DNA from: Coptis chinensis
Lineage: Eukaryota; Streptophyta; Magnoliopsida; Ranunculales; Ranunculaceae
Assembly (NCBI GenBank): GCA_015680905.1
Contig: CM027383.1
Span: 91,594,501 to 91,658,500 of the forward strand
Length of the DNA stretch: 64,000 bases
Reading direction: 5' to 3'
This document shows positions 7,496-58,060 of the stretch, in pieces. How positions within the stretch are numbered: the first letter of the stretch is position 1; each line of letters begins with the position of its first letter. The notes beneath the pieces were generated by a model. That model worked only from the letters and a program-made list of their open reading frames with translations, had not been told where the DNA came from and ran no database searches. A program made the position numbers and the translations under genes.

Positions 7496-10270
7496 TCACC
7501 TACTGTTGTTCGATCTTAGCAATAAAGCTAAGATTTCGGAGAACTGGGGGCGCTTTGAGGGGCAACTATTCCAGCATTTTGTCATCACTGACCGTAGGAT
7601 TTGCGGACAGTCCTTGGGGATATCCGGTCGCAGCCCACATGCAGCAATTCCAACTGCTGCTTGAACTGGTGAAAGAGCGGCATATGCTGCTTCTCCTGCA
7701 ACCATTTCCCACACCACCATCCCAAAACTATACACATTGCTCATCCATGTCTCTGTGACGCTCTCGGGGTCACCTGCAATGATCTGTACAAGAATGAAAG
7801 AGAAAAACATTAAAAAATGTGCTCTTACTATTAGCTTGACAAAAGTAAAAAACTGTAGGATTCCCATGTAGAATTAAGTTATAAAAAACATGTTAACAAA
7901 TTGAAATGACAAGTCCAATGTTGCGGCTGAAAGGAGTTCAGTTCCATGATTTAAAAGGTTAACCAACTCTGACGAGTTCATGTGAAAGTAGCCTCTGATG
8001 CTCTAGAAACAGTTGTGCTACTAATGAATGTCTTAGCACGCTTAAGAAAAGGTTTAAACATTAAGAAATTGTAAAGAAACACTAATCATTAAACACAAGA
8101 TAGGTATAATGCTTTATTGATGGAACAGTCATACTGATAATTATACAATGTAGCCTCACAGTCAGTAATGCAGAGGGTAAATAACCTTTCACATTAGTAC
8201 TGTTTTAGCTGAACAAGAGATAAATTCCTCAAATTAGTGTATGTGTTCGCAAGAAAATAATCTTAGATTATGGCCCAGTATGTGTTTGTTGGAATTTTGT
8301 AGGAATTTTGACAAACACAATGGACATAGGAGAACTATATCAACCTCTAAGTAGACCACTTGCCTTATCCTTAAGGTTTGAGGCTAGCTGATAGAATTTT
8401 GTTCTACAAACAATTCTATTCAAGGATAACCTTAAATGGCTTGGAGTAATATATACCTTATCAAGTAGATATGGTAGGGAAAATTACCATGAATGAGCAT
8501 GCCTTGATAGAATAGACAGGTACAATGTGGAGGCAGTGGTTAGTAAGAACTAAAAAGAAACATACGCTTTCTCAATGCCGTCCTAAAACGTGGTGAAGAT
8601 CAAATTTAATACAGCTGATACTAACATAATTAAGCTTGACATAGTAGTGATAGAGAACCAACCTCGGGAGCTAACCACCGGTATCCGTCCATTTCATACT
8701 CAGTCACTTCGCCATTGTTCATACAAACTGTGACAATACCCATGTTTCCAACACAAGCATTCCCCTGTCGGTCAAGTAGAATCCTGTGTGTGTTCAGGTC
8801 TCCATAAACCACACCATGATCATTCATAAACATGAGTCCTTCAGCTATATCGACAGCAACTCTTATTATGTCCTTAGCCTGAAGCTTCTTGCTGTTCTGC
8901 AAAAGGTCATGAACTGAACCCCCTTCCATTATCTTCGTTACAACGCACAATCCATGATTCTCATCGACGCAAACTCCATGGAATTGTAATATGCTCTTGT
9001 GCCCACAAGTCATCAGCTCTAACAAATCCCTTCGAATCTCAAACTCAAAAGCGTTCCCCCTTTCAGAACCCCTAAGCTTCTCAATAGCCACCCTTTTCCC
9101 CTTATATACGCCTTTAAAAGAATTGAGTCCGATCTGATCTGTGAATTCAATTTCATCAGAGCTAAATAACCATTTCCCAATCTTGTCTCCTCCAGATCGA
9201 ATTGTCTGCCACTCATCAACAGATACAAGACTTGATGTGTTGGGTAAAGGCATTTGTAACTGGATATTAAAGTTTGAATGTTCAATTCCATTTTCATAAT
9301 TATGTGAATCATTCTCATCAGCATCTCCTACTTCTTGACCCTTAGTGTTTTCCTCTTGGCACCCACAAAACCCAAAAGGTAGCTTCATCGGTTTTGGTTT
9401 CTTTAGAGCTGATTTCAAGGCATTCTCGATTCGACTTTTGAAAGATTTCTCATATCCAGATTGAACCAGAACAAGAACAATGCCCAAAGTAAAACCTTTC
9501 TTCTCAAAGATCTGAATCTTCTTGCAACAAATAGAAGCATTATCAAGTGCCCCTGACATTGTTGGCCAAGAAATTGAAGAATTACAAGCAAATGTAAGCT
9601 TGAACACAAATCCTTGTGTCTCATCATCAGAAACTTCTTGAATCAAAATAGCTGGATGTTCATCAATAGCCGCTTGCTCAATTAATTTAATGTGCAGAAA
9701 AACATCCTTCATGTCGAAATCTGCTTGGGCATAGCTATAAAAACACACAACAATAATAAATAAATCAATCAAAAAACCCAAAGTTCAAATTTGATTCCTC
9801 ACCTAACAAGTGCTACTGAATCAAGATGCATTCTAATATTAGAAATGACATAAACTAAATTACAAACAAGAAATAATTTCTTACCTAACTGGTAATGAAT
9901 CAAAATGCTTCCTTATGTTAGAAATGAGCTTCTCAGGCAGTTGACTTCCAGGGTAAAGTTGGGTGAGATTCTTAACAACCCCACCCCAGACAAGCTTTCG
10001 ACAAGTTTCAATCTTGGAACCTTGTGGACCACGAACTGAATCAAGATTGAGTGAGTTCTTAAGGTTGGTAATAGCTTCTGAAACATTACACTTGAGTTTC
10101 TGCAACTTCTTCTGCATTACTGAAGAGTCTTTAAAACCACCACCCATGTTAGAAGAATTTGAAGACAGAACTTCTTCTGATCTATCTTGGGTTTTCATCA
10201 AAACTTGCTCCACCATGTCTTCATCTGTGCTAGCCCGACCAGACCAGCATTCAAGTGCAGCAGACGCCAT
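7496..10270 (-). CDS. Raf/TKL-like protein kinase, predicted pseudokinase
   Basis: Three exons join cleanly at GT-AG sites: 10270-9885, 9734-8663 and 7783-7496, giving 581 residues. The ATG is followed by 'MASAALECW', and the N-terminal half (to about residue 310) is the conserved alpha-helical region of a plant family of uncharacterised kinase-like proteins. The C-terminal half is a kinase fold: a degenerate glycine loop (IGLNSFKGVY), a catalytic-loop equivalent (YGDLNTHRIL, Asp near 441), the APE motif (484-486) split by intron 2, then SNVYSFGMVVWEM and a terminal R-P segment. Two key residues are altered: the VAVK lysine position reads Glu (VAIEK, about 347) and DFG reads NMG (about 459). 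Catalysis is therefore doubtful and a scaffold or regulatory role is more likely (inference). All frames are open and the gene looks intact. Confidence 0.88.
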
Positions 10271-10784: not shown

Positions 10785-13700
10785 ACTTTGGTATCTCACA
10801 TCATATTTAGATGAGATACTATTTTAACATCGAATACTAAATTTTCAGTAATTTGGTATTTTTTCATTTTTAAGAGAGGCACATTAATGAAAATGTAAAA
10901 AAAAACACTAAAATAAATATTAAATTGGTTAAAATTTGGTATTTGTTTTGGTATTGTATTAAATCTCTGTGCGGTTTTTTGAACACAGCATATATAGGTT
11001 GGACTAGACAGTGGGCTTTTATAGCGTAGTGTTTCGAACACCACATGGGCTTGGGATTCTATGGCGCGGTTTATCCAAAACCACATGTGTGATATGAATA
11101 AAAATGATAGAAATTAGAAACTGTGCAATTGTATCTAATAAGAATTATCCAAAATGATAAAAATGATTTAAAACCTATAATTATGTATCTAATAAGAATG
11201 AATTGTGCAATTGTTTGAGAATGAAAATGATACTATGAATGAATTATACTCCGCTCATATATGTTACATATTCTTATACATCTCATATTACATAAAATTT
11301 ATTTAACTCTCTTCTTACGCCCCTTACCACTCGATGACTCTCCTCTTTCTATTTGGATGTTCCGAAGCTGCTCCTTTAAGTTCCTAACCTGAGAACCAAG
11401 ATCTTCTCTGTCTGCACGAAGGTTAACTACCTCAGCCTGAAGTTTCTCATATCCCTGATGTTGTTGCGTGTACACCTGCTGAATATCCTCATACACTTTT
11501 CGAGTCTCGTCATACACACGTTGAGATTGCTGATATGTTTGAGAATATGCTTCCTCTCTTTATTGGCTATAATGATACACGATAGTCATCATCCCATCAA
11601 ACATACGAACCTTTGTTCTCATATCTTTCTCGAACCTCAGCCTGAAAATCCAAAAAAATACAGTGTGAGTACATATTAGATATATAATGAATAAGATAAA
11701 TAAAACAACTAAACTCACCAGGGTATACTAATCAATCTACAGCTTTAACTCATAGAAATGAGCATCAGGCACCTCAGGAATGGAAATATAAGTTGTCTCC
11801 CCATCAAGTCCACACACGGCAAACATCTGAGGATTAGTGGCAGACACAGGAGCTGGATGATATACATTCACAGGTTGTAGGTTGTAAACAGGCTGTGGCG
11901 GATGAAGAATACGTAGCTCACGTCTCATCCCTTCTAGGCACACAAACTCGAAGTTGTTAGCCCGACCAACAGGAGGCAACAACGGACCCATAGAGACACG
12001 GTTCCACCATCTATAATATTGATAAGTAGTATGCTCAACAACAAAAGAAGACGCATCTGGCCAAGGACCACCACTGGCATGAACTTGAGTTCTACTCCAA
12101 GACTTAGCATCACTAACATTTGGTATGGGAGCACATGGAACTCCATAACGTCTAATCAAATGTCTCCAATATCTGTTGCCACAGTACCAAACCTTACAGT
12201 CACGTCGGCAAAAACAACTCTGTGACGTGACAAAACACAACTGGATCGTCAAAGACAGTAGAACAAACGCCAAGGTCTCCACTCAATAGATGACAATGAT
12301 TTAATATCAATCTGAACATGAGCCATACAAATATTATTTTTAATCTGCCTCCTGTTACGAGTCAAATGAGGCCCTGATCAACTTGAAAATTTAGGGCGAG
12401 TATTAGCAATCATGCCTATGTTAGGACAAAGACAACGAAAGTACTCATAAAACCAAATCTCCAAAAGTCCTGTGAATCTTGCAATCTGAGGACTTTTACT
12501 TCCAAATATCTATGAAGATTTGTCTAATGTCATTATCAATGTGGCATATACTGAGCTACCAATGTCATAATTTCTCATATTATGCAAATCGGAAACATAA
12601 ACATAATATTCAAATCGTACCGTAGAATGACTATTTGGAAACAAAACATACCCAATAAAAGACATAAAAAAGCCCTAATATACACATCAACACCCTCACT
12701 ACCAAGTAGAATAGTCAAAGCTAACTCTGGTCGTGTATTAGGATCTAAGAGAGATTCCATGTATGCAGTCTTAATATGAGATAGCTTAATACCATAAGAA
12801 TCATAAACATCCGCATCCAAGCGAGGAAAAATCATAAGCATACTACCAATGTTCTCATAATTTGTATTAAAAGGTATCGGTTGGCATATACCGATACTCA
12901 ACCCAGAAATCATGGTGAAGTCTAGTGGTGTGAACCTCAACTCCGCACAAAGAAAATGAAATGTATGAGTTGTATTTCACCATCTTTCTACTAAAGCTAT
13001 GACTACTGCCCAATCAGCCTTCTTAGAATCTACATCAACCAAAATACCCAAAGGTGTACACAAAATATTATCTCTAATATGTACAAACTCATCCAAACTC
13101 TTAAGAACCTTCCACCACTCTCTAAGACCAAATAAAGCCGATATAACTCGGTAGTAAATAACTTACTGATATTATGAAAAAAAAATAATACATATAAAAA
13201 AATAATTAATTGGTCCAACTCAACTAATTAATGTATAATATTCCAAAATATTTAATTACATGAGAATTAGTCACTACACTCGACACGTGTTTTGTATCAC
13301 GTGTAGAATACACAACTTGCATATCAAGTGTTTTATCGGAATTAAATTGTCAATCGAAGTCGTTCAATTGATACTCAAGTACATAGAGATGTCTATCAGT
13401 CGGCGCAACATCCTCGGTTTCTTCTTCCCTATCATCTTGTACTTCCTCGGGTTCTTCTACCTCTACATCATCGCTAATGTCGTTTGTGTACTGCCAAAGT
13501 GTCAATACTCATCGTCATCACCGTCGAAATGTTGAAAATAATCCATATAAAATTTCAAGAGTTTAGATAGTTTTTTTTTTTTTTTTACTAAGGAGAGGGT
13601 TTATGAATTGAGAGAAAAGTTAAAAATGAATGAACCGCGCGGTTTAGATCATGTTTATAAAGACATAGCACGCGGTATTTCAAACACTATGCAGTTTTTG

Positions 13701-14769: not shown

Positions 14770-14778
14770 AACTATATA

Positions 14779-14920
14779 GGGGACCCAGCCCACTCCATTT
14801 CGTAGGCACCCACCTCGGCGAGATGATCTCAAGATACAGCAAAACCCTTCGCACAAATAAAACAAGCCAAATTCTCCTTTTTGCGCGGCAATCAAAAGAA
14901 ATAAACAAACAATAAATCAC
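14779..14920 (+). repeat. Left terminal inverted repeat of the MULE
   Basis: About 140 bp alignable, in inverted orientation, with 25700-25847. Identity is strongest in the first 65 bp and in a 22-nt block at 14855-14876. Confidence 0.75.
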
Positions 14921-15369
14921 ATTTTCTTTTCCAGCAGCAATTTGCAACCTCCGTTTGTTTCTCCAGCAAACCGAATTAACTCTCCAGTTTCCCACCAGCT
15001 ATAAAAAGAGATGAAATCAACGCCAACATTGAATGATTTAGGTGAGCAAATATTGATTTTTACATATTTATATTGAACTGAAAGAGTTGTTTGCACCCTA
15101 CTTATATTGCCAAGTTATATTTCGAAATTAGGTTACCAAACATTAATTTTTGCATACATATATTGAACTGACAAAACTGTTTGCACCCTACTTATATTAC
15201 CAAGTTATATTTCGAAATTATTTGATGTTGATTCCGAACTTGTTTTGATGTTGGGGGTTTTCAACTTATATATTCAACTTGTTTTGAATTGGCAGATGAA
15301 AATCTCTAAGATGATTATTTTTTTGGTTTTTTTTTTCTTTCTCTAGCTTTCAACTGATTATCTATTGTG

Positions 15370-17938
15370 CTTTATGTAGAATCAATTGATGACGTCTTTT
15401 TTTATAGTGGAGTATCTGAGAAAAATGAAAATAAGGCCACTTCGTCTTCTCGTCCAACTCGAGACGACATAGACATAGTTGATAGCGAAAAGATTCCGTA
15501 TTTTGGAATGAATTCTACAAGTCTAGAAGGTGCGAAATAGTTTTATATTGACTACGGAAAAGCATTGGGATTTAGTGTCAGTACTCGAAGTATCCAAAAA
15601 AGAATTCCACATTCAAACGAAGCGAGTACTTGTCAAATGACTTGTGAGCGTTTTGGGACTTACATAGAACGAGTGAAAAAAAAAAACAGATGAGGGGTCT
15701 GAGAAAGAAATAGGGTCCGATAAAGAAGTAATAAAACAGAGGGAAAACACGAATACGGTGAAATGTGGGTATTTAGCAACAATGAGAGTAACAAAACAAG
15801 TCAGTGGATTATGGAAAGTGGTGAAATATGTTGGTGCACACAATCATAACCTTGTTAGTCCGACGAAAAAGATGTGTATGTCTATTTGCAAAAATTTGTC
15901 TGTTGCAGCTAAGATGTTGATTGACTCATTCCATGATGAAGGCATACATGTGAATAAAGTTGTTAATATACTTGACGGACCAGAAAATGGTTTTTTTGAC
16001 AGAGATTGTTGGAACCACTTAGGTCTATCGAAGGAGTATAAGAAACCTGTCAAAGGTGATGCAACCGCAATGCTAAATTTTTTTTAAGAAGAAAAGTATA
16101 GAAGACCCTAATTTCTTCTACGCAATACAGATGGATAGCGAAGCACGGGCAATAGATTTTTTCTGGGTAGATGGTCGTTCACGTATGCTGTTTTAGTATT
16201 TTGGTGAGATTCTTTTCTTTGACACCACATATCGCAAGAACGTATATGAAATGTCATTTGCACCGTTTACTAGAGTAAACCACCACATGCAGTCAATCCA
16301 ATTTGGTTGTGCACTCCTTTTGGATGAGACATAAGAATCTTTTGAGTGCGTTTTTCAGACTTGGCTTGAAGCCATGGGCGGGCATTCCCCATCTTCAATA
16401 ATCACAGATCAAGACAGAGCTATGATGGCGGCTGTTGCGAAAGTTTTCCCAAATACACAACATAGATTTTGCCTATGGCACATTTTGAAGTAATTCCCTG
16501 AAAAATTTCCACATGTTTATTTCAAGAGGACATCTTTCAAAAAAGCTATCAAAATGTGTATTCGGGAAACTTATATTCCTAGTGCTTTCAAAACGAAGTG
16601 GAAGGAATTGATGTCTACATATGAGTTGGTGGAGAATGAATGGCTCATAGGACTATATGATATTCGAGAAAAATGGGCACCGTACCGGTTTATCACTTGG
16701 ATACTTTCTATGCTGTCACTAATACTACTGGGCGTTCCAAAGGCATAAATTCTTTTTACAAGAATTTTTTACATTCAACTACAACTCTTAGAGTGTTTGT
16801 GTTAAAGAATGATAGGTGTTTGAGTAGAATTGTTCAAAGAGAAAAAAGAGAGGATTATATTACAGAACACTCGGATCGCATCGTCGATAGTAATGCCTTT
16901 CTTTTGAATAGTGCATCAAAAGTGTATACAAGGAATGCGTATGATAGGTTCAAGAAAGAATGTGAGAAAGCTTTAGCTAAGTATGTCTTGGATGATGATG
17001 AAAAGGGTAGTGAGGACTACACAACCTACACTTACAAGTCTCGAGTGGAAGGTGATCAGCGTGAGTGGAAGGTGAAGTTCAACTCAGCCACAAAATAAGG
17101 TAACTGTGAATGCAAACTTTTCGAGTTCCTAGGGATACCCTGTGGACACCTTGTAAAGGTTTTTCAATGTCGTGATATAGAGATACCTGATCACTTTATT
17201 CTAAAGAGATAGATGAAAAGGGCTAACAAATATAGAGCCGAGTATGACGGTGGACTAGTAAGTGGCCATGAGAGTTTTAAGGTACTGAGAACTACCCAAC
17301 TTCAGATGGTTGCCAATTAATTAGTCTATGAAATGGCTGAATCAGATGAGACTTCCCAATTGATGTTGAAAAGATTACAAGCACTATCACTAGAGCTGAA
17401 GGAAATAAAGAAGACTAACGACGGGACCAAGATTTCAGTTGTCGATTCATGCACTATCAATGAAAACTCACAACCTACAATTGATGCCTCACAAGGTTTA
17501 CTTATGAATCCCAACATCTCACAAACTAAAGGAAGGAAAAAAGAAGTGAAGGTTTACAAAAGTAGTACTAGAAAAAAAGGAAATTTGGAGAAAGGCATTG
17601 CAAAAGCTACCAAAGGGAAGACAGGCAGGAGATGTACTAGTTGTAACCAGGTTGGTGTTAATCACGACAAACGAAATTGTCCACAAAATCCAAATAGGAA
17701 GAAGGGGATAAGTAAGTACAGTGATTTTCGTTTTCATTCATTCCTAGTATACTAAATTTTCTTTGTTTAGAGTTCACTGTAAAATTGACATTTGTCATCA
17801 TTTTCTTACTTGACAGTTATTGATGAGGAGATTGAGAATGTGGACGATCATAGAGATGATGATGACGACGACAAAGATAGAGATGGTGATGAAGACAATG
17901 AAGATAGAGATGGTGAAGAAGTTGAATTTAAAATTTGA
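15370..17938 (+). pseudogene. FAR1-type MULE transposase, decayed
   Basis: The full domain order of FAR1/FRS-type proteins, which descend from MULE transposases, can be read across frames. A FAR1 DNA-binding region comes first (about 15480-15860: 'FYIDYGKALGFSV', later 'HNHNL'). The MULE DDE core follows (about 16100-16520: 'FFDTTY', 'ITDQDRAMMAAV', 'FCLWHI'), then a C-terminal helical part ('YAVTNTTGRSKGINSF', 16700-16770), a SWIM zinc motif (CEC…GIPCGHL, about 17109-17160), a CCHC knuckle (CTSCNQVGVNHDKRNC, about 17632-17680), and after an intron an acidic Asp/Glu tail ending at 17938. In-frame stops occur at 15538, 16194, 16332, 16491, 17096 and 17210, plus frame changes near 15700, 16087 and 16675. 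It could be a host FRS pseudogene, but its place inside the TIRs favours the element's own transposase. Confidence 0.82.
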
Positions 17939-20515
17939 AGTTAGAATCATTTGTGTTTGAATTTGAAGTTATGTATATGAATTTGGAATTTGAAGTTATG
18001 TATAGTGGGGTTTGAATTCGGAATTTGAAGTTAGAATCATTTATGTATGAAGCCGGAAGTTGTGTATATGAATTTGAATCATTTGGTTATGTGCGTTTGA
18101 ATTTCATGTTATGTGTGTTTGTATATGAATATGAAAATGTGCATTTGAATTTCACGTTGAATTTGACATTTGAAATTTGAATATGGATTATAATTTGAAT
18201 TTGGTTGGATATGACATGAACTTGGTTTGGATATGAAATGATCTTGGTTTGGATATGAAATGATCTTGGTTTGAAGTTTGATTAAGGTTTCGTTGGATAT
18301 CAAATGAATTTGAGTTTGAATTTGGTTAGATATGTGAATTTGGTTTAGATATGAAATGAACTAAAATCAAATAAAAAATGTGATTAGATTTTGGTCCATA
18401 CGACCCACCCAGGTTGCACAAAACTATCCCAAATGATGCCCAAATATTGTTTACAGACGAAACTGGCCTTAACGACCTCTGCAAATCACTGGGATATAGA
18501 CCTAAATGATCTTATGGGGTCGTTTAGAGGGCTAATGAGCAGTCTGAAGAGGTTGCTGGGTTATAAACCTAAACGATCTTATGGGGTCGTTTAGAGGGCT
18601 GATGAACGGTCTGAAGAGATCATTTCTAATACTTCTTTACGACCTCACTAGTCGTTTGGACCAAAATTCCAGATATTTATAATTGGATTTCGATTTGTAT
18701 TTCTCAGTTAACATATTACTTAACATAGTACGAAAAGAAACCCAACTACTCAACCTCTGTTTCTTAGAACTTAGAACCATAAGAATTAACTTTGTTAGAT
18801 AACTCAATTGGTTCCTCTGTCAATTCCTCTTTAACATAGGTATGTCTGATTCCTCTGTCAATCTATGTCAATGTGGCCAAATCTCACCTGAAGTTTGGTC
18901 CTATCTTGACTAGCTGCGCTTCACTAATGTGTCAAGTTGCACTAATATATTGAATTATTTTCAATGTCGCAATGAAACGTTGGAGATACTTAATGACCGA
19001 TATCAGGGAAATATTAGTCGTATGCGGAGAAGGGAAAATAAACTTTTACAAAGTATTGAAGAATTGAAGAAGGAAAATGATTCAATGAAGAAAAACATTT
19101 TTACTGCCAAAATTGTGTTGTTCTCAATTGTGAGTTTGTTGGTTGGTGTGGGCATTGACTGGATGGTTTTGGTTTAATTACCCTTAAGTAGGTGTTTGAT
19201 GTATATAAATTCTATTGTCTGTTGATGTAAGAGATCTCTATTTTGTCTGTTCATGTAAGAGATGTCTAATGCTGTTTGTTCATGTAAGTAAGACATCTTC
19301 AGATGTGTTTTTGATATAAATTTGTAATTAGTGCTTGTACGTATTTTGTTGCGTAATGTTATCTAATGTTGATTTATGCATGTTTTGATCTCTAAGTTCT
19401 ATAGGAAATTTCATTGGTGTGGGCATTGGCTTGATAGTTTTGGTTTAATTAGGTGTATACAAAAGTTGACACCTCATTTTTTTACAAAAGCTTACACCAG
19501 CTCATTTTTGACAATTTTGCAATCTTGATTGGTTGTTGAACCCTAAACTCACTAACCAATAGGATTTTGTATATAGATTAGGGTTTGGTTAGGGATTAGG
19601 GTTTTGTATATAGATTAGGGTTTCATTATGAATTTGACATTTGAATATGAATTTGACGTTGAATTTGAATTTGATGTTTGAATTTGAATTTGACTTTGAA
19701 TTTGACATTTGAGTTTGACGTTGAATATGAATTTGACGTTGAATATGAATTTGACGTTTGAATTTGAATTTGATGTTTGACGTTTGAATTTGACGTTTGA
19801 ATAATCATTTGATGTGAATTTGACATTTGAATATGAATTTGACGTTGAATTTGAATTTGACGTGGAATTTGAATTTCACTCTAAACGATCTTGCCAGACC
19901 ACTAGGAATCACTATAAACGACCTCTTCAGACCGCTTCAATTTAGACCTAAACGACCCCATTAGATCGTTTGGCTCTATAGACCATCGATTTGCAGAGGT
20001 TGTTAAGGCCAGTTTTGTTTGTGAACGATGTGTGGGGATCATTTTCTATGGTGATGTACGACCTGGGTGGGTCGTTTGGACCAAAATCAAAGCAAATTTA
20101 CTATTTGATTTAGTTCATTTCATATCCAAAGCAAATTCATATACACACATAACTTCAACTTCATATTCATATACATATACATACAACCATATTCAAATTT
20201 AAACTCAAATTCACGTTCAAAATCAAATCATATTCTTATACATCAAACCATATTCCAACTCAAACTCAAATTCACGTTCAAATTCAACTTCAAATTCAAA
20301 TGCACATTTTCATATTCAAATTCATATACATCACTTCAAATTTGAAATTTATATAAAATAACTTCAAACATATAAATTCAAACTTCAAACCCTAATCCAA
20401 CCAAACCCTAACCAAACCATAATCCAACTTCAAACCCTAATCCCTAACCAAACCCTAATCCAACCAAGCCCTAATCTATATACAAAACCCTAATCCAATT
20501 TCAAAGCTCCAACTT
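17935..20515. repeat. Long imperfect inverted repeat with GAATTT minisatellites
   Basis: The left arm (about 17940-18670) holds degenerate tandem 'gaatttgaatttga'-type repeats, 'gatatgaaatgaac', and a block starting 'ggtccatacgacccaccc' and continuing to about 18668. The right arm (about 19880-20400) carries the same blocks in reverse complement: 'gggtgggtcgtttggacc', then 'gttcatttcatatcc', then 'caaattcacgttcaaat' repeats. A further GAATTT/GACGTT minisatellite lies at 19626-19880 in the left-arm orientation. The 1.2-kb loop contains the GRF-like ORF. This may be a nested long-TIR MULE or the rearranged interior of the larger one. Confidence 0.7.
18842..19177 (+). pseudogene. Small GRF-finger-like coiled-coil/TM ORF
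   Basis: Starting at ATG 18842, the frame reads 'MSDSSVNLCQCGQISPEV', one in-frame TAG (18911-18913), then 'FQCRNETLEILNDRYQ', a Glu/Lys-rich coiled coil (…LQSIEELKKENDSMKKN…), and a C-terminal hydrophobic segment of about 20 residues (IVLFSIVSLLVGVGIDWMV). A CxCG start, a later cysteine, a short coiled coil and a terminal membrane anchor match the layout of small plant GRF-type zinc-finger proteins, which are often found with MULE/PMD loci. The finger itself is incomplete (CQCG…FQC only). Without the stop it would be 111 residues. Identification is by layout, not by strong motif. Confidence 0.5.
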
Positions 20516-20520
20516 TAGAC

Positions 20521-20675
20521 ATGATCGCGACGGTAATGCCCACCAATAAACTTGCACCGGGTCAAGTTTTCAACTTCGTGGAACGATCTCCTTGCTTCCT
20601 CAGGAATCGCAGGCCCACCCAATTGCAGACATTTCTCAAGCATGAGAGTAGTTTCGTCGAGAACGTTGCTCTGTA
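20521..20675 (-). pseudogene. Possible C-terminal exon of the PMD gene
   Basis: The minus strand encodes an open segment reading 'LDETTLMLEKCLQLGGPA', then 'IPEEARRSFHEVENLTRCK', and ending at a stop near 20521. It lies downstream of the PMD core in the same orientation and looks coding, but I do not recognise the sequence. It could be a tail exon of the PMD gene or an unrelated captured piece. Confidence 0.3.
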
Positions 20676-21187
20676 AAAAGAAATGCAAACCTAATTTAGC
20701 ATATACAATTTTAAAAGAGCAGAATTACAATTCTAAAAGCACAAAACTCACCAGTCAAGTTCCTAGGGAACTAGGAAATGTCTGCAAGGAGAAATGAATA
20801 GGAAGCTGAGGATTTATCATTCGAATGTGAGTATTCATGATGCATGAGCATGTATTAATTAATAATTAATAGTTTATATTTTATTTGGTCTCCTAATTGA
20901 ATTAGGAATAGGACTTATAATAGTTTCCTATTTGGTTTCCAATTAGGTTTAGTAGTTGTTTTCTTATATAAAGGCATCTAGGCCTTCATTGTTAGATGGT
21001 TATTACTGATTATTAATTCTTTGTGAATTGTTCTTCATGTTTCAAGGTTTAAACCCTAGATTTAGGTGTTTGATTTATTAAATCTTATTGATGTTCATCC
21101 ATTGTTGAAGTTTCCGCCAACAAGATACATCAATTCATTTCATACCATTCCATGTATCCAAACTCACACTCCCATAGATAACTTGCC

Positions 21188-21470
21188 TTAGGTCCTCAAT
21201 TTTGGGGTTGGATCACGTGATTCTCCCATGTGGTCTAATATGCCAAAGCAAGATTCCATTTGACCTTGTATCCGCGTCCGTTGGTAGTTCTCGTCGCGAT
21301 ATTTGGCTATAGAGGATTGGTGGGTATAAGCTACAGGTGACCCAACTGATGGACCGCCCTCCAAACAGCATAAAGCTCCACAACACCAAAAAAACATATA
21401 AAGCCCTCAAAATAAACAATATCATCCATCAGGCGTAAAGCTCTAACATTGTTGTAAGGCCACCATTCAA
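21188..21470 (-). pseudogene. Downstream exon region of PMD gene
   Basis: Minus-strand frames encode a Trp/Tyr-rich segment ('LRLMDDIVYFEG', then 'VFLVLWSFMLFGG', then 'DADTRSNGILLWHIRPHG'), consistent with the region following the PMD core in PMD-C proteins. The segment is split between two frames, so it is probably broken. The link to the core exon at 21815-22540 is inferred from order and strand. Confidence 0.4.
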
Positions 21471-21814
21471 TCTATTATATGAGAAAATAAATCAGTAATC
21501 ACATACTCCAACTATCAATTAATCAATAAAATATTAAACAATTTCATATACTTACCATCAAACAAGTTGTCTCATTAAGAAATTTTCGAAAACACTGCAA
21601 TGCATGTTTTGTGTTAACATAGTACGTGCGGAGCGGCAATTGAGTGCCTATGACATCGAGGTTGGGTCAACTCATACTCCAGGTTTGGGATTGGCCTGAA
21701 GCACGGGAAGTACTCGTAGATCCACACCTAGATTTATATACACACACAATTAAAATACTAATAAGATAGGGAAGATAAAATGTTAACATATAAACGAAAA
21801 TACTAAATATTTAC

Positions 21815-22540
21815 CTGTAGAAGAGTGAAATATCCTAAAATGCCTTTCACTTTGCCACCTGTGACAGCCCCAAGACCACGGTACAAGTATGCAAGTATTG
21901 TTGCACCCCACGCATACTCATTGATCTCGCTAAACTCCAACAGCAACCTCAAGTAACAAACAGGCACTGCAGTCCCAGACTTGTTGGGGAAGAGAGTACA
22001 TCCAAAGAAGAATAACAAATAACCTCTGACAGCATGATGTACCTCTATCAAAGTCGACGCCTTCTTCACACCCCCTTTTAGTTTAATCGCACTATCATGC
22101 ACCTTCCCGGCCATGTGATGCTTCAAGAATTGTAACCTTATTTTTGATATGAAGTGGCTGGCTTCCAACTCTTCCTTAATCACTCTCAACGATATATTAA
22201 GAGCGCGGTTAAGAATGTTCTGAGTCTGTTCCAACTTCATATCAATGTTTTCTTGCACGACTCTTCCTTTTATCGAGACTCCTAGGAGTTGGGAGACATC
22301 ATCCAAAGTGATAGTCATCTCCCCAAACGGCATATGAAATGTGTTGTTCTCCGGATGCCACCTCTCCATAAATGCAAAGGCCAACACTGAATCCTGATGC
22401 TCGTATACTCCCATCACAAGATCATACAAACCCGTCGTTCTGAGCTCGTTTTCAAATCTAGGAGAGTTTTTAAATTCTGACTCCAAATTCCATTGAGTTA
22501 ACTTGGTTAGGTACTGACCACACTTCAAAATTCCGCGCTC
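21815..22540 (-). CDS. Plant mobile domain (PMD) core exon
   Basis: An uninterrupted 726-nt exon (242 codons) lies between an acceptor (…ttttag, 22541-22542) and a donor (CAG|gtaaat, 21813-21814). It encodes the PMD: 'FMERWHPENNTFHMPFGEM' followed by 'TITLDDVSQLLGVSIKG', then a long helical part and 'YAWGATILAYLYRGLG', the hallmark motifs of MAIN/MAIL and transposon PMD-C proteins. Host PMD proteins act in the nucleus in silencing and genome stability. Transposon-borne PMDs are thought to come from or mimic them. No stop interrupts this exon, unlike the transposase in the same element. Upstream acidic exon and downstream pieces share the strand. Confidence 0.82.
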
Positions 22541-22626
22541 CTAAAACAATAAAGACAACGAAGAGTCAATGAGGAGAAGATTTAATTTTAAAAAAAAAAA
22601 AAAAAAAGTACTAATTAATATTAATA

Positions 22627-23358
22627 TTACCTACTCCTCCCAAACATCGCGAGCAACGTGAGCTGGTCCTTGACACGTACTTGCACTCTAGTCAGGCCAC
22701 CACCATATGTGCCTAGTTGGTACTCTTTGTCTTTCTTTGATTTTCTCACAAAAGTTTGAATAGGACGTACCACCAGTGCCTCCATTGTTTCCTCCACCGC
22801 TTCCTCCTCATCATCATCATCCTCTTCCTCATTGTCATCCTCTTCCAAATCGTCGTCAATCTCCTCCAGATCGTCATCCTTTTCGTCCCCCTCCTCATCG
22901 TCGTCACCATACTCTTCACCATCCTCCTCTTCTCCTTCCTCATCACCATCAGCATCCTCCTCTTCCCCTTCCTCATCACCATCAGCATTCTCCTCTTCAC
23001 TATCACCACCATCTAAATTCTCAGGAAGAACTACATCGACATCCTCATCCTCATCTATATCCTCATCTAAATCTAAATCTAAATCTACGTCCTTATCTAC
23101 AATAGGAGCCCTTATTTCTTTCTTTCTTTCTTCTTCTTTTATTTTTTTCTACTACCTCTAAATCACCTACACCTACTACATTACTCGGATCGGTGGCTTC
23201 TCGATCCCCTCTACGGGTGGATGTCGGCGTTCCCCTTCCTCTTTTTTTCTCAGGCGAGTCAGCACAACCCAAACTACTACTGCTACCACTAAGCAATTTC
23301 TTAATACCTGTGTAGATGGTTTTGCTACACTCTTCACATTCTTTGATCGAGAAGCCAT
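22627..23358 (-). CDS. Acidic N-terminal exon of the PMD gene (inner copy)
   Basis: Reading from an ATG at 23358 (MASRSKNV), the minus strand encodes a basic Ser/Lys/Arg-rich part and then a long Asp/Glu tract (repeating GDEEGEEEDAD units, about 22790-23100), ending in 'VVRPIQTFVRKSKKDKEYQL' and 'LLAMFGRSR' before the intron preceding the PMD core. Compared with the outer copy at 23464-23893, the start region has a 1-base difference that breaks the frame near 23325, so the functional start is uncertain. The acidic tract is low-complexity and gives spurious Ser/Pro-rich frames on the other strand. Confidence 0.55.
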
Positions 23359-23893
23359 TATTACTACAAAAAATAGTAATAAACAAGTATTAGTAACAAG
23401 GTAATTTAAAAAATAGTTGTCGTCTTCAGAAAATGACAACAATTCCTTCTTTGTATGAATTCAACATCCTCATCCTCATCTATATCCTCATCTAAATCTA
23501 AATCTAAATCTACGTCTTTATCTACAATAGGAGCCCTTATTTATCTTTCTTTCTTTCTTCTTCTTTTATTTTTTTCTACTACCTCTAAATCACCTACACC
23601 TACTACATTACTCGGATCGGTGGCTTCTCGATCCCCTCTACGGGCGGATGTCGGCGTTCCCCTTCCTCTTTTTTTCTCAGGCGAGTCAGCACGACCCAAA
23701 CTACTACTGCTGCCACTAAGCAATTTCTTAATACCTGTGTAGATGGTTTTCGCTACACTCTTCACATTCTTTGATCGAGAAGCCATTATTACTACAAAAA
23801 ATAGTAATAAACAAGTATTAGTAACAAGGTAATTTAAAAAATAGTTGTCGTCTTCAGAAAATGACAACAATTCCTTCTTTGTATGAATTCAAC
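23038..23893. repeat. Tandem duplication of about 428 bp in PMD 5' region
   Basis: Unit 1 (23038-23463) and unit 2 (23464-23893) are nearly identical, both running from 'acatcctcatcctcatcta' to 'tccttctttgtatgaattca'. The unit contains the N-terminal coding part (MASRSKNV…, ATG at 23358 in unit 1 and 23786 in unit 2), so the gene's beginning is present twice. The low divergence implies a recent event. Confidence 0.95.
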
Positions 23894-24295
23894 AGTTCTT
23901 TTCTGAGTTTCCCCGTGATATGTATATTCTACTACTAATTCAATTAATAAACAACTCAAAACCAAAAATAGGATTGATCATCTTTGGCAAAAGGAACTGA
24001 CTATATAACACAAACGAAACCTCATTTTTCATTCGCAAACTTAGTCATGACAATGCAATACAACCACCAACGAAAATCAGGTCATGACAATGCACACACT
24101 GAACCAAATTCACAATAGATAGTGCAATCATAACAATCCCATTTCAAAGGCCCCCATTTCAATATAGATAACATGCATGGATATCAAGTACCTCAGTGTA
24201 ATTTTATAATTGTTTTCACTACCTTCATACTTAATCAAAACAAAAAATAACACAAAAAATACAGAACAAACAAATTTCACACCTAATACTTATAC
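23894..24295. other. Gene-free stretch upstream of the PMD gene
   Basis: AT-rich, with no supported gene. It is the presumed promoter side of the minus-strand PMD gene. Confidence 0.4.
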
Positions 24296-24480
24296 GGGGA
24301 GGGATACACCCACTCCCATTTTGGCCACATCCAGCCCACTCCCAATCTCATCCACTCAACTCGCAAGATGATCTCAAGATTTCATGGCCGAAATTAAAAC
24401 AAAATAAAATAACGAAATAAAAGAAAAAACAAAAAAACCCCTTCGTCTGTCTCTAGCAACCCAGCAAAAACGAAGAACAA
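24296..24480 (+). repeat. Internal third copy of the MULE terminal repeat
   Basis: Starts 'ggggagggatacacccactcc', almost identical to the inverted right end at 25847, and continues through 'gatgatctcaagat' and 'ccccttcg'. Orientation matches the left terminus. The flank before it ('cttatac') does not match the TSD of the 11-kb element. Together with the right end it would delimit a 1.55-kb unit (24296-25847) with no ORF, either a nested non-autonomous MULE sharing an end or an internal duplication. Confidence 0.7.
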
Positions 24481-25330
24481 ACAAACATAACACTCCAAAT
24501 CGAAATAACTTAGAAATATTTCTTCTTTCCTTCATTTCTTTTTTCCACTCCAAAATATTGTTACAATTAATACAATGATACAGTGAATATGATCCAATAC
24601 AATCAATTTGCGACAACAAGAAATCTAGCAACTACTAATCTACTGAATGGATAAAAAAAAAATGCATGGATAACAATGGTTAAGTGATGGAATTGAAATA
24701 ATTGAATTTTGGACATACTGTTTCAAGTAAGGGATGGAAACTCAATGGAATTCACAATTCTCTCAGACAATAATGGTCAGCAAGCGTCTTTTATTTTTTC
24801 TATTTTTACTGCTTTTCCATATTGGTAATTGGAACTGAGATATGGAGAGAGAGAGCCTGCAATCTCATGAGACATGATGATCAGTCTCTGGCTATATGCT
24901 CGTCCATTAAAATCCAAAGATTTTGAATAACCTTTTTAGGGTTTCAATATCTATCGAGTCTTCGTGACTATGATTATAAAACCTGTTATTATTTATGGTT
25001 GTGTTGCCTGTGCGGCTGTGCATGTTACTACTATTTACTTGCAGAACTCTCTAAACCTGTCACTAGAACTAATAACGTCGCAAAGTGGTATAGTATAACT
25101 GCAAAACATCTTAAATGACATACTATTCTTCATGCACAGACATGTTATGACTCTTCAAAACTATTTCAACTTCTTTTTCTTATTAAACCTTCTAACCACT
25201 TCTACTTCTTTTTTTTATTAAACCAGCGAGATATGGATTCTTCAAAACAAGATGGGCTAACAATCCTCACATTACAGGTTCACACATAGTCTCCTCACAT
25301 TGATGTACTTGAAACAACAACACCCAAAAT

Positions 25331-25540
25331 GCCCAATTTATATTAACCAATCAATTGGGATAAACACAAAAACAAAATAAACAACAAAAACTAGAGCAAT
25401 GCAGGCTATGCAAAAAAAGTTTTTTGCCCAATTTATATTAACCAATCAATTGGGATAAACACAAGAACAAAAAAAAAACAAAAACTAAAAAAAAAAAAAC
25501 AAAAACAAAAACTAGAGCAATGCAGGCTATGCAGAAAAAA
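25331..25540. repeat. Tandem duplication of about 95 bp
   Basis: Units starting at 25331 and 25426 both begin 'gcccaatttatattaacc' and end 'gagcaatgcaggctatgca'. The second is extended by A-rich expansion. It lies inside the right part of the MULE. Confidence 0.9.
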
Positions 25541-25699
25541 ACCGAAATTTTTTTACTTGCCTGAAATAGCTTGAACTCTATTTGAGCAATGCAGAAAATA
25601 TCTCATGTACGAAGAGAATTTGGTTTGAAAATTTGGAAAGAGAATTTGGTTTGAAAATTTCGATTTGGAGTGGGTACACTGGGAGCAAATTTTTTATTT

Positions 25700-25847
25700 A
25701 GTTTGAGAATTTGGCTTGTTTTATTTCTGCGAACGTTTTTGTTCTTTTTTCTTTCTTTTGGTTTGTTTTATTTGAACCCTTAGATCTTGAGATCATCTCG
25801 CGAGGTGAGGTGAGTGGCTACAAAATGGAGTGGGCGTATCCCTCCCC
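25700..25847 (-). repeat. Right terminal inverted repeat of the MULE
   Basis: Inverse of the left end, ending '…gtatccctcccc' at 25847 and followed directly by the 9-bp duplication. Confidence 0.75.
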
Positions 25848-25856
25848 AACTATATA

Positions 25857-56867: not shown

Positions 56868-57448
56868 TTATATATAATAGCCTAAAAAAAACAATATATA
56901 TCGGTAATATATTGGACATATAGGCGATATTTTGGGCCTTTACTTTAAACTTCATTGTCTGCTCTCTATATTCGATTCATCTGAATTGAGCAACAAGTCT
57001 ATAGCCAGGACTACGATTTTCCAATTAGAGGGTCCACCATGTGGAATTCTAAGTGTCAATCACCACTCGATTTCATCAATCTCATCATTCTAAACCTTTT
57101 AACGTCCCATCTTTCCCTAAATTTCTTTCTTCTTTTTCCTCTCCCGAAAACCCTCTCCATCTCACAAAAAAACGTTCTTTTTACATCTATATATATATAT
57201 ATATATATATGAGATATATACTGATTAAATTCCTCAGCATAGTCTATTAGTCAAGAACCTAGCCTATAGAGATTCTGTTGATAGTAATCCAGAGAACGAA
57301 CCAATAATAGGGAGAAAGAGAGAGTTAGAAGAAAAGACGAGAAAGACAAACATCCCCCTCATCCACTTACACAAAACTAAAAACAAATCAAATCCCAAAC
57401 AACATAAGAAAACTCAAACACCCACTTCAAAGACCACAGAGAACTCTT

Positions 57449-58060
57449 ATGGATTCAATATCAGGAGGTGGATCAACAGATATGAACATAACTGAAGGTT
57501 CATCAGCTGCAACAGGAGAAAGAGGTGTCGTCGTCGAACGATCTTCATCCGTTCCGCTTAGTCGTTACGAGTCACAAAAGAGAAGAGACTGGAACACTTT
57601 CTTACAGTACTTGAAGAACCACAAGCCACCATTATCACTAGCTAGATGTAGTGGTGCACATGTTATTGAGTTCTTGAAGTATCTAGACCAGTTTGGAAAA
57701 ACTAAGGTGCATTTATTAGGGTGTGCTTATTATGGACACCCAAATCCACAAGCACCATGTCCTTGTCCATTAAAACAAGCTTGGGGAAGTCTTGACGCAC
57801 TTATTGGAAGGTTGAGAGCTGCTTATGAGGAGAATGATGGGAAGCCTGAGGCGAACCCGTTTGGTGCAAGAGCAGTTAGGATTTATTTGAGAGAAGTGAG
57901 AGAAAGCCAAGCGAAAGCGAGGGGGATTCCTTATGAGAAAAAGAAACGGAAGAGACCAACAACTTCTACAGCTATGGCTCAAGTGGTTGAGAGCGGAGGT
58001 GTTGGACAGTCTTCTTCGGATGTCGGTGTTGTTACTATTGCTTCTAATATTACTGCATAG
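57449..58060 (+). CDS. LSH: ALOG-domain transcription factor (LSH family)
   Basis: A single-exon gene of 203 residues with a clear ATG and TAG. The ALOG domain spans about residues 37-164: [32 protein letters not shown], the zinc-ribbon insert (C92, H97, C104, C106 in [19 protein letters not shown]), [18 protein letters not shown] and [20 protein letters not shown] nuclear localisation signal KKKRKRP (164-170) follows, then a Ser/Val-rich tail without further domains. ALOG proteins are plant nuclear DNA-binding regulators of organ boundaries, meristem fate and light-dependent hypocotyl growth. The '[20 protein letters not shown]' end is closest to the LSH6/LSH10-like group by memory. The long AT-rich upstream leader contains a (TA)n tract. 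Intact. Confidence 0.95.

Follow-up and report, generated by a model that had tools for sequence, protein, structure and literature searches.

The stretch of DNA analyzed here, hereafter the window, comprises 64 kb of the Coptis chinensis genome (C7:91594501-91658500) and contains one Mutator-like element (MULE) with both ends preserved, which spans positions 14779-25847 (11,069 bp). The exact 9-bp target-site duplication (TSD) AACTATATA is found at 14770-14778 and 25848-25856, immediately outside the GGGGA...TCCCC termini. The terminal inverted repeats (TIRs) pair over approximately the outer 60 bp and in a 46-bp block at 85% (14831-14876 / 25705-25750); in a by-eye reading, the left TIR lacks 14 bp present in the ends of other copies, which is why the two TIRs looked so diverged. 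Between these ends, the element carries a decayed transposase gene and a small open reading frame (ORF) on the plus strand, followed by a convergent gene of the Plant Mobile Domain (PMD) family:

14770..14778, no strand: left TSD AACTATATA, exact sequence match
14779..14876, plus strand: left TIR, 14 bp short of the ends of other copies, TIR alignment
15012..17939, plus strand: FAR1-type MULE transposase gene, decayed, delineated by Pfam and aligned conserved pieces
18842..19177, plus strand: small accessory ORF of 111 aa, predicted to contain a coiled coil and a hydrophobic segment at the C-terminus, one internal TAG in the window copy
20521..23790, minus strand: PMD gene, convergent to the transposase, Pfam PF10536, outer limits probable, placed by reading
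24297..24440, plus strand: internal third TIR-like sequence in the orientation of the left TIR, alignment to other copies
25705..25847, minus strand: right TIR, TIR alignment
25848..25856, no strand: right TSD AACTATATA, exact sequence match

The complete MULE of ~11 kb with diverged TIRs and an exact 9-bp TSD, proposed in the initial annotation, is borne out. The element combines a MULE transposase domain, TIRs with a ~9-bp TSD, and multiple genomic copies that share its ends, and its bracketing by the TSD and TIRs is not due to chance because the same genes recur elsewhere in the same order and orientation. When the joined flanks of the element were used as an empty-site query, the only match in the C. 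chinensis genome was the window locus itself.

Recurrence of the gene order across the genome

We searched 935.6 Mb of the genome for each of the three genes. The search with the small ORF yielded 58 rows that merged into 46 loci (all 74 candidates were scored), among them that of the window and a single, distant locus of a true GRF protein. The PMD search returned 3,173 first-look candidates, which are not proven copies, and the MULE transposase search 3,776, with the best 150 scored in each case. A convergent PMD was listed downstream of the small ORF at no fewer than 23 of the 46 loci within 6 kb, compared with an expectation of 0.02 of 46 under random placement, and at no fewer than 30 within 30 kb; among the matches listed, a PMD in any other placement was found at none of the 46 loci. 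The transposase lies upstream of the small ORF, on the same strand, at a minimum of 19 of the 46 loci within 6 kb and 23 within 30 kb. Only one small-ORF locus has a transposase match placed elsewhere among those listed, and this locus also has an upstream one. Both genes are correctly placed within 30 kb at no fewer than 20 of the 46 loci and, conversely, 19 of the 29 top-scoring transposase rows (77-100% identical) are followed by the small ORF on the same strand within 30 kb. Because of these counts, in particular those for the convergent PMD and for both genes together, we conclude that the order transposase, small ORF and convergent PMD is the architecture of the family. The additional genes seem to belong to the regular make-up of the transposon rather than to have been picked up by accident.

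In searches with the two ends, the left end matched in 47 rows and the right end in 43, with two rows for some loci (best 40 candidates scored for each end), and 12 regions were examined in detail. Five of the 12 contain the transposase, the small ORF and the PMD in the stretch examined (C3:98.88, C5:24.01, C3:96.05, C9:35.42 and C9:70.12 Mb); the multi-gene architecture suggested in the initial annotation is supported, as genome copies share it. The region at C2:44.63 Mb retains the small ORF and the PMD, with the transposase reduced to a FAR1 remnant, and the regions at C1:27.81, C5:41.48 and C7:53.34 Mb lack the small ORF or the PMD, but a match to the absent gene is listed 22-29 kb farther along; nested insertions could explain this spacing.

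Both ends are readable in few copies, namely the window and those at C3:98.88, C9:70.12 and C9:39.51 Mb; no left TIR was found within the stretch examined at C3:96.05, C9:35.42 and C2:44.63 Mb. The 9-bp TSDs were recovered in part: with the ends placed by eye, the C3:98.88 Mb copy has TTTCTAGAT/TTTCTAACT (7/9), the C9:70.12 Mb copy TTATTAATT/TTGTTAATT (8/9), and the C9:39.51 Mb copy TATATATAT, 9/9 but inside a (TA)n run. A TATATA-type sequence adjoins many copy ends. On its left side, the copy at C9:70118700-70133500 carries an additional TIR-like end together with a 5' fragment of PMD, an arrangement that would fit a duplication of the right arm onto the left, and at C9:35.43 and C2:44.64 Mb, the transposase promoter runs into palindromic or TTTGAA-type tracts rather than into a TIR.

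The three genes and the palindromic arrays

Five conserved pieces of the transposase were aligned, all on the plus strand:

15379-15687: FAR1 N half
15677-16084: FAR1 C half
16089-16691: MULE piece
16661-17254: SWIM piece
17321-17752: zinc-knuckle-like tail

To these, reading of the sequence would add a short first exon at ~15012 and an acidic C-terminus extending to ~17939. The N-terminal FAR1 domain that defines a FAR1-type transposase is present (PF03101; C half 1.9e-6, 28.9 bits vs a cut-off of 28.1; N half 0.0037, below the cut-off), together with MULE (PF10551, 3e-30) and SWIM (PF04434, 9.3e-6). The aligned pieces contain six in-frame stops, and the frame changes between some of the pieces. 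Two of the six stops, MULE-82 and MULE-135, are private to the window; FAR1-54 and MULE-36 are common to the window and the C3:98.88 Mb copy, SWIM-146 to the window and C1:27.81 Mb, and SWIM-184 to the window and C8:58.85 Mb.

The PMD gene belongs to the PMD family (PF10536, 6.3e-38, 131 bits vs a cut-off of 34.9), and its parts and secondary changes are as follows:

21806-22540, minus strand: main PMD exon, open, part of the PMD gene with an acidic N-terminal extension
20838..21132, no strand: 295-bp TG...CA insertion, solo-LTR-like (LTR, long terminal repeat), in the 3' part of the PMD gene, flanked by the 5-bp duplication ATTCA (20833-20837, 21133-21137)
23035..23890, no strand: tandem duplication of the 5' part of the PMD gene, with copies of ~427 bp and approximate limits, from alignment to other copies

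Both changes are window-only events: the insertion is absent from all seven other copies examined, and the two halves of the duplication match a single interval in each of the six other copies that cover the region. Many of the PMD frames listed in the genome are open. A diverged PMD locus at C2:110671500-110680500 (L067 and L068) encodes a PMD 57% identical to those of the window type and has a convergent frame that is probably a MULE transposase, with FAR1 (0.011) and otubain-like (0.11) matches, both below the cut-off, and a MULE piece at 2.9e-4 in a two-sequence search. The 9 kb examined at this locus showed no small gene. Several close relatives of the L067 PMD (93-98%) have open frames, suggesting recent activity. 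A weak PMD-like fragment (12575-12976, minus strand, E 0.0021, below the cut-off) lies just left of the element, and the neighboring host genes in the window are a kinase with DUF7377 (8630-9781, minus strand) and an ALOG-domain gene (57329-58057, plus strand).

The initial annotation took the three genes to be a FAR1-type transposase, a GRF-like finger ORF and a PMD gene; Pfam upheld the first and the last, and the finger had to be abandoned. The small ORF of the window reads LCQCGQISPEVW, which resembles a CxC finger. When the window was compared by sequence with 22 of the 45 other small-ORF loci, the CxC pair proved private to the window copy among the 23: in the 22 others, the first cysteine of the pair is absent and the second is common, with single cysteines at the other two positions in a few. 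Neither the window ORF nor the two relatives scanned gave a Pfam match to GRF (PF06839). A true GRF protein (L063; PF06839, 1.3e-8) is among the weakest matches of the small ORF in the genome search (E 5.7e-5). The by-eye majority form of the small ORF is 36% identical to this protein over 96 aa, with a single-comparison E of 2e-11 that coiled-coil composition may inflate, and the homology runs mainly through the coiled-coil half. The hydropathy of the hydrophobic C-terminus reaches 2.47 (19-residue). Judging by sequence, the family is a predicted coiled-coil/transmembrane protein, probably a GRF protein that lost the finger and retained the coiled coil and the hydrophobic C-terminus. It thus shares these parts with the plant GRF zinc-finger, coiled-coil and transmembrane proteins (PF06839; e.g. 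L063) and differs from them in that no GRF finger was found in it. Seven of the 22 codon-aligned copies of the small ORF are stop-free.

Selection was assessed for all three genes. Constraint is evident for the PMD between lineages, with a ratio of nonsynonymous to synonymous substitution rates (dN/dS) of 0.51-0.71 for window-type PMDs against the 57%-identical PMD in all seven comparisons, at a transition weight of 4; none was shown for the small ORF. In the transposase, the value for variants shared within the family (0.77) is lower than that for singletons (1.15; Fisher 0.02), which suggests constraint. Low pairwise NG86 ratios within the family (0.58-0.81 for the transposase pieces, 0.63 for the PMD, 0.68-0.73 for the small ORF) were dropped as proof of function because transition-weighted counts are near neutral.

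The small gene of the window is flanked by two intergenic arrays:

18386..18660, no strand: palindromic array A, exact 22-bp palindrome at 18571, half-sites at 18518, 18571 and 18585, in one arm of an inner inverted repeat
19876..20115, no strand: palindromic array B, exact palindrome at 19950, half-sites at 19883, 19916, 19950, 19964 and 20070, in the other arm

The exact 22-bp palindromes have the form AAACGAYC-N6-GRTCGTTT, and the window contains eight half-sites (AAACGAYC or GRTCGTTT), all within the element and on both sides of the small gene. The arms of the inner inverted repeat around this gene (18364-20111 and 18114-20330) are 82-89% complementary and include TTTGAATTTGA-type tracts along with the palindromes; matching arms are present in several other copies. 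Among the eight other regions in which the small ORF was read, half-sites occur on both sides of the small ORF in four (C1:27.81, C3:96.05, C3:98.88 and C9:70.12 Mb) and on one side in three (C5:24.01, C2:44.63 and C9:35.42 Mb); none were found near the small ORF at C5:41.48 Mb in the sequence examined, with the 3' side outside it. Genome-wide, the exact palindrome occurs at 967 sites, the majority of them unassigned to an element, compared with 5 for the reversed control. The diverged PMD locus at C2:110.67 Mb has exact palindromes as well, at a distance of 1.4-1.5 kb from the PMD exon on its 3' side and ahead of the convergent frame. Of the 50 palindromes listed on C1, two lie on the 3' side of PMD rows, at distances of 1.29 and 1.37 kb (2 of the 7 PMD rows listed there), and one beside a small ORF; the palindrome-PMD association has a random-placement value of 0.0001, with the 2.5-kb limit set after the first cases had been seen. 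Palindrome pairs ~340-620 bp apart also occur on C1 (e.g. 5942486/5942944 and 39632121/39632576) and suggest that another family of small elements bears them. It is possible that an array between the convergent gene ends is old in PMD-containing MULEs and now exists as two inverted copies around the small gene.

Origin, decay and possible function

We consider it very probable that the window contains a decayed member of a multi-gene MULE family, a reading that covers the element, its architecture and ordinary cut-and-paste transposition. Several observations weigh against it. No PMD is listed within 30 kb at 16 of the 46 small-ORF loci, and 13 of the 46 lack both a listed PMD and a listed transposase; three of the 12 regions examined (C8:58.85, C4:94.67 and C9:30.98 Mb) have neither the small ORF nor the PMD in the stretch examined; and 47 of the 50 palindromes listed on C1 are not near a listed PMD (7 PMD rows are listed there) or small ORF. 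The small ORF shows no clear purifying selection, with pooled ratios of nonsynonymous to synonymous polymorphism (pN/pS) of 1.01 in 22 copies and 0.57 in the seven stop-free ones. Amino-acid changes are not depleted among the shared variants of either the small ORF (0.91 vs 1.25 for singletons) or the PMD within the family (0.77 vs 0.98), neither difference being significant.

Under passenger capture of the Pack-MULE type, the PMD and the small ORF would be pieces of host genes that were acquired once and copied without function. Capture of PMD by MULEs is proposed in the relevant passages of Ikeda et al. (PMC5418596), and both the lack of demonstrated selection on the small ORF and the near-neutral singletons in all genes fit this explanation. 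We nevertheless regard it as unlikely given that the diverged PMD locus (57%) also has a convergent, probably MULE-type frame, albeit with weak matches, and palindromes 3' of the PMD, that the PMD evolved with a dN/dS of ~0.5 between two lineages, and that many listed PMD frames are open.

The other alternatives concern the history of the window copy. The initial annotation interpreted the perfect TSD beside a decayed transposase as a sign that the copy moved after the death of its transposase, that is, by mobilization in trans. Apart from the combination of an exact TSD with six in-frame stops, this scenario would account for the four stops that are each common to one other copy, two of them to C3:98.88 Mb. 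The tree of copies is star-like and weakly supported, with very short internal branches, and the tips leading to the window measure 0.051 for the transposase, 0.037 for the PMD and 0.054 for the small ORF. By a hand calculation, 0.05 changes per site over the 18 TSD bases amount to ~0.9 changes. Even if the insertion were as old as it could possibly be, the pair would thus be unchanged with a probability of ~0.4, and the TSD does not show that the element was inserted later than its transposase was lost. Moreover, the copy that shares two stops with the window is not its closest relative in this weakly supported tree, and of the four shared stops, three arose by a C-to-T or G-to-A change and the fourth may have done so; the two private stops are transversions. 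Mobilization in trans is accordingly not supported by the TSD, and we find it improbable.

A composite origin, with the left end derived from one MULE and the 1.55-kb unit at 24297-25847, TIR at both ends, being a separate small MULE alongside it, is suggested by the internal TIR-like sequence at 24297, whose outer 18 bp match the right TIR more closely than those of the left TIR do. The 9-bp TSD fits 14779/25847 and not 24297/25847. By alignment, the internal sequence is present in the copies at C5:24.01, C3:96.05 and C9:70.12 Mb and missing from those at C2:44.63, C9:35.42 and C3:98.88 Mb; because it lies inside blocks of ~88-90% identity in the three copies that have it, it predates the window insertion and is an internal part of the family. 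The genome copies do not bear out the possibility, raised in the initial annotation, that 14779 and 25847 come from two unrelated elements. Thus, we rejected a composite origin, a very remote prospect, for the window copy on the strength of the TSD and the other copies; it could still describe the origin of the family. The right 1.55 kb, with a TIR-like sequence at each end, could perhaps move alone.

Returning to a decayed member of a multi-gene family, the following course of events can be envisaged. Going by its protein families, the FAR1/MULE/SWIM protein would bind and cut the TIRs and join the element to target DNA cut with a 9-bp stagger, preferably at AT-rich or (TA)n sites. The PMD and the small protein are putative accessory proteins, most likely aiding escape from host silencing, and the palindromic arrays beside their genes perhaps mediate this escape, by analogy with the action of VANC on the motif arrays of VANDAL elements. 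The window copy most likely was inserted whole and then lost its transposase in place, through stops and frame changes; its PMD gene received the LTR-like insertion and the local duplication. The anti-silencing step, drawn from analogy, is offered with low confidence. The palindromic array as a protein-binding array comparable to the VANC targets is a lead; alternatively, it might be a terminator or an insulator. A still more speculative proposal, and one that we would not expect to hold in full, is that the PMD, the finger-less, GRF-derived, tail-anchored protein and element-specific palindromic arrays form a self-encoded anti-silencing module in which the PMD would compete with MAIN/MAIL-type complexes. 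If so, the PMD-MULE association would exist in a separate-gene form, functionally parallel to VANC and its motif arrays, and the module might be behind much of the very large number of PMDs in this genome (more than 3,000 first-look candidates).

Judging from the recurrent architecture, a MULE can include convergent accessory genes as a stable component, as opposed to incidental cargo. The family, in which PMD forms a gene of its own at tens of loci (open at some of them) next to a candidate cis array, offers a concrete system for testing counter-silencing by PMDs. FAR1/FHY3-type MULEs such as Jittery have the FAR1, MULE and SWIM domains that are also found in the window transposase, and the window element has extra genes.

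An association of MULE transposases with PMD is known from grasses and Amborella, where the relevant passages of PMC5418596 report PMD-C as a fusion with the transposase and speculate on an anti-silencing role. In the window, by contrast, the PMD, placed to PF10536 only, stands apart from the transposase as a convergent gene of its own, and a third gene lies between the two. The host PMD proteins MAIN and MAIL1 take part in transposon silencing, which transposon PMDs have been suggested to counter (PMC5418596), a suggestion repeated in PMC8616336, as far as the pertinent sections of these papers go; in the portion of PMC7156037 that deals with them, eudicots are stated to hold mainly genic PMD-C. 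The EPSPS cassette of the dicot Amaranthus palmeri is transposon-rich, with several PMD genes at its ends and MULE repeats listed, and in the corresponding passages of PMC5240378 these PMD genes are not described as genes of one MULE. SaTar elements of guayule and rice likewise have MULE ends in microsatellite targets, but are described in the relevant part of PMC5907723 as small and non-autonomous, whereas the elements of the window type are ~10 kb long and carry coding genes.

In the open-licence PubMed Central literature, we recognized no description of a MULE with a separate PMD gene and a GRF-related gene. A functional parallel might be the VANDAL MULEs of Arabidopsis, which have an accessory gene besides the transposase and arrays of a short motif outside the coding parts, and in which VANC acts on these arrays according to the passages of PMC5735166 that concern them. 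The VANDAL motif is YAGTATTAY and that of the window a 22-bp palindrome, the window accessory genes match PMD and no family, respectively, and any binding or demethylation in the window element would be by analogy with VANC. PMD in MULEs is already known; new are the separate convergent PMD with a third gene and the 22-bp palindromes beside the small gene.

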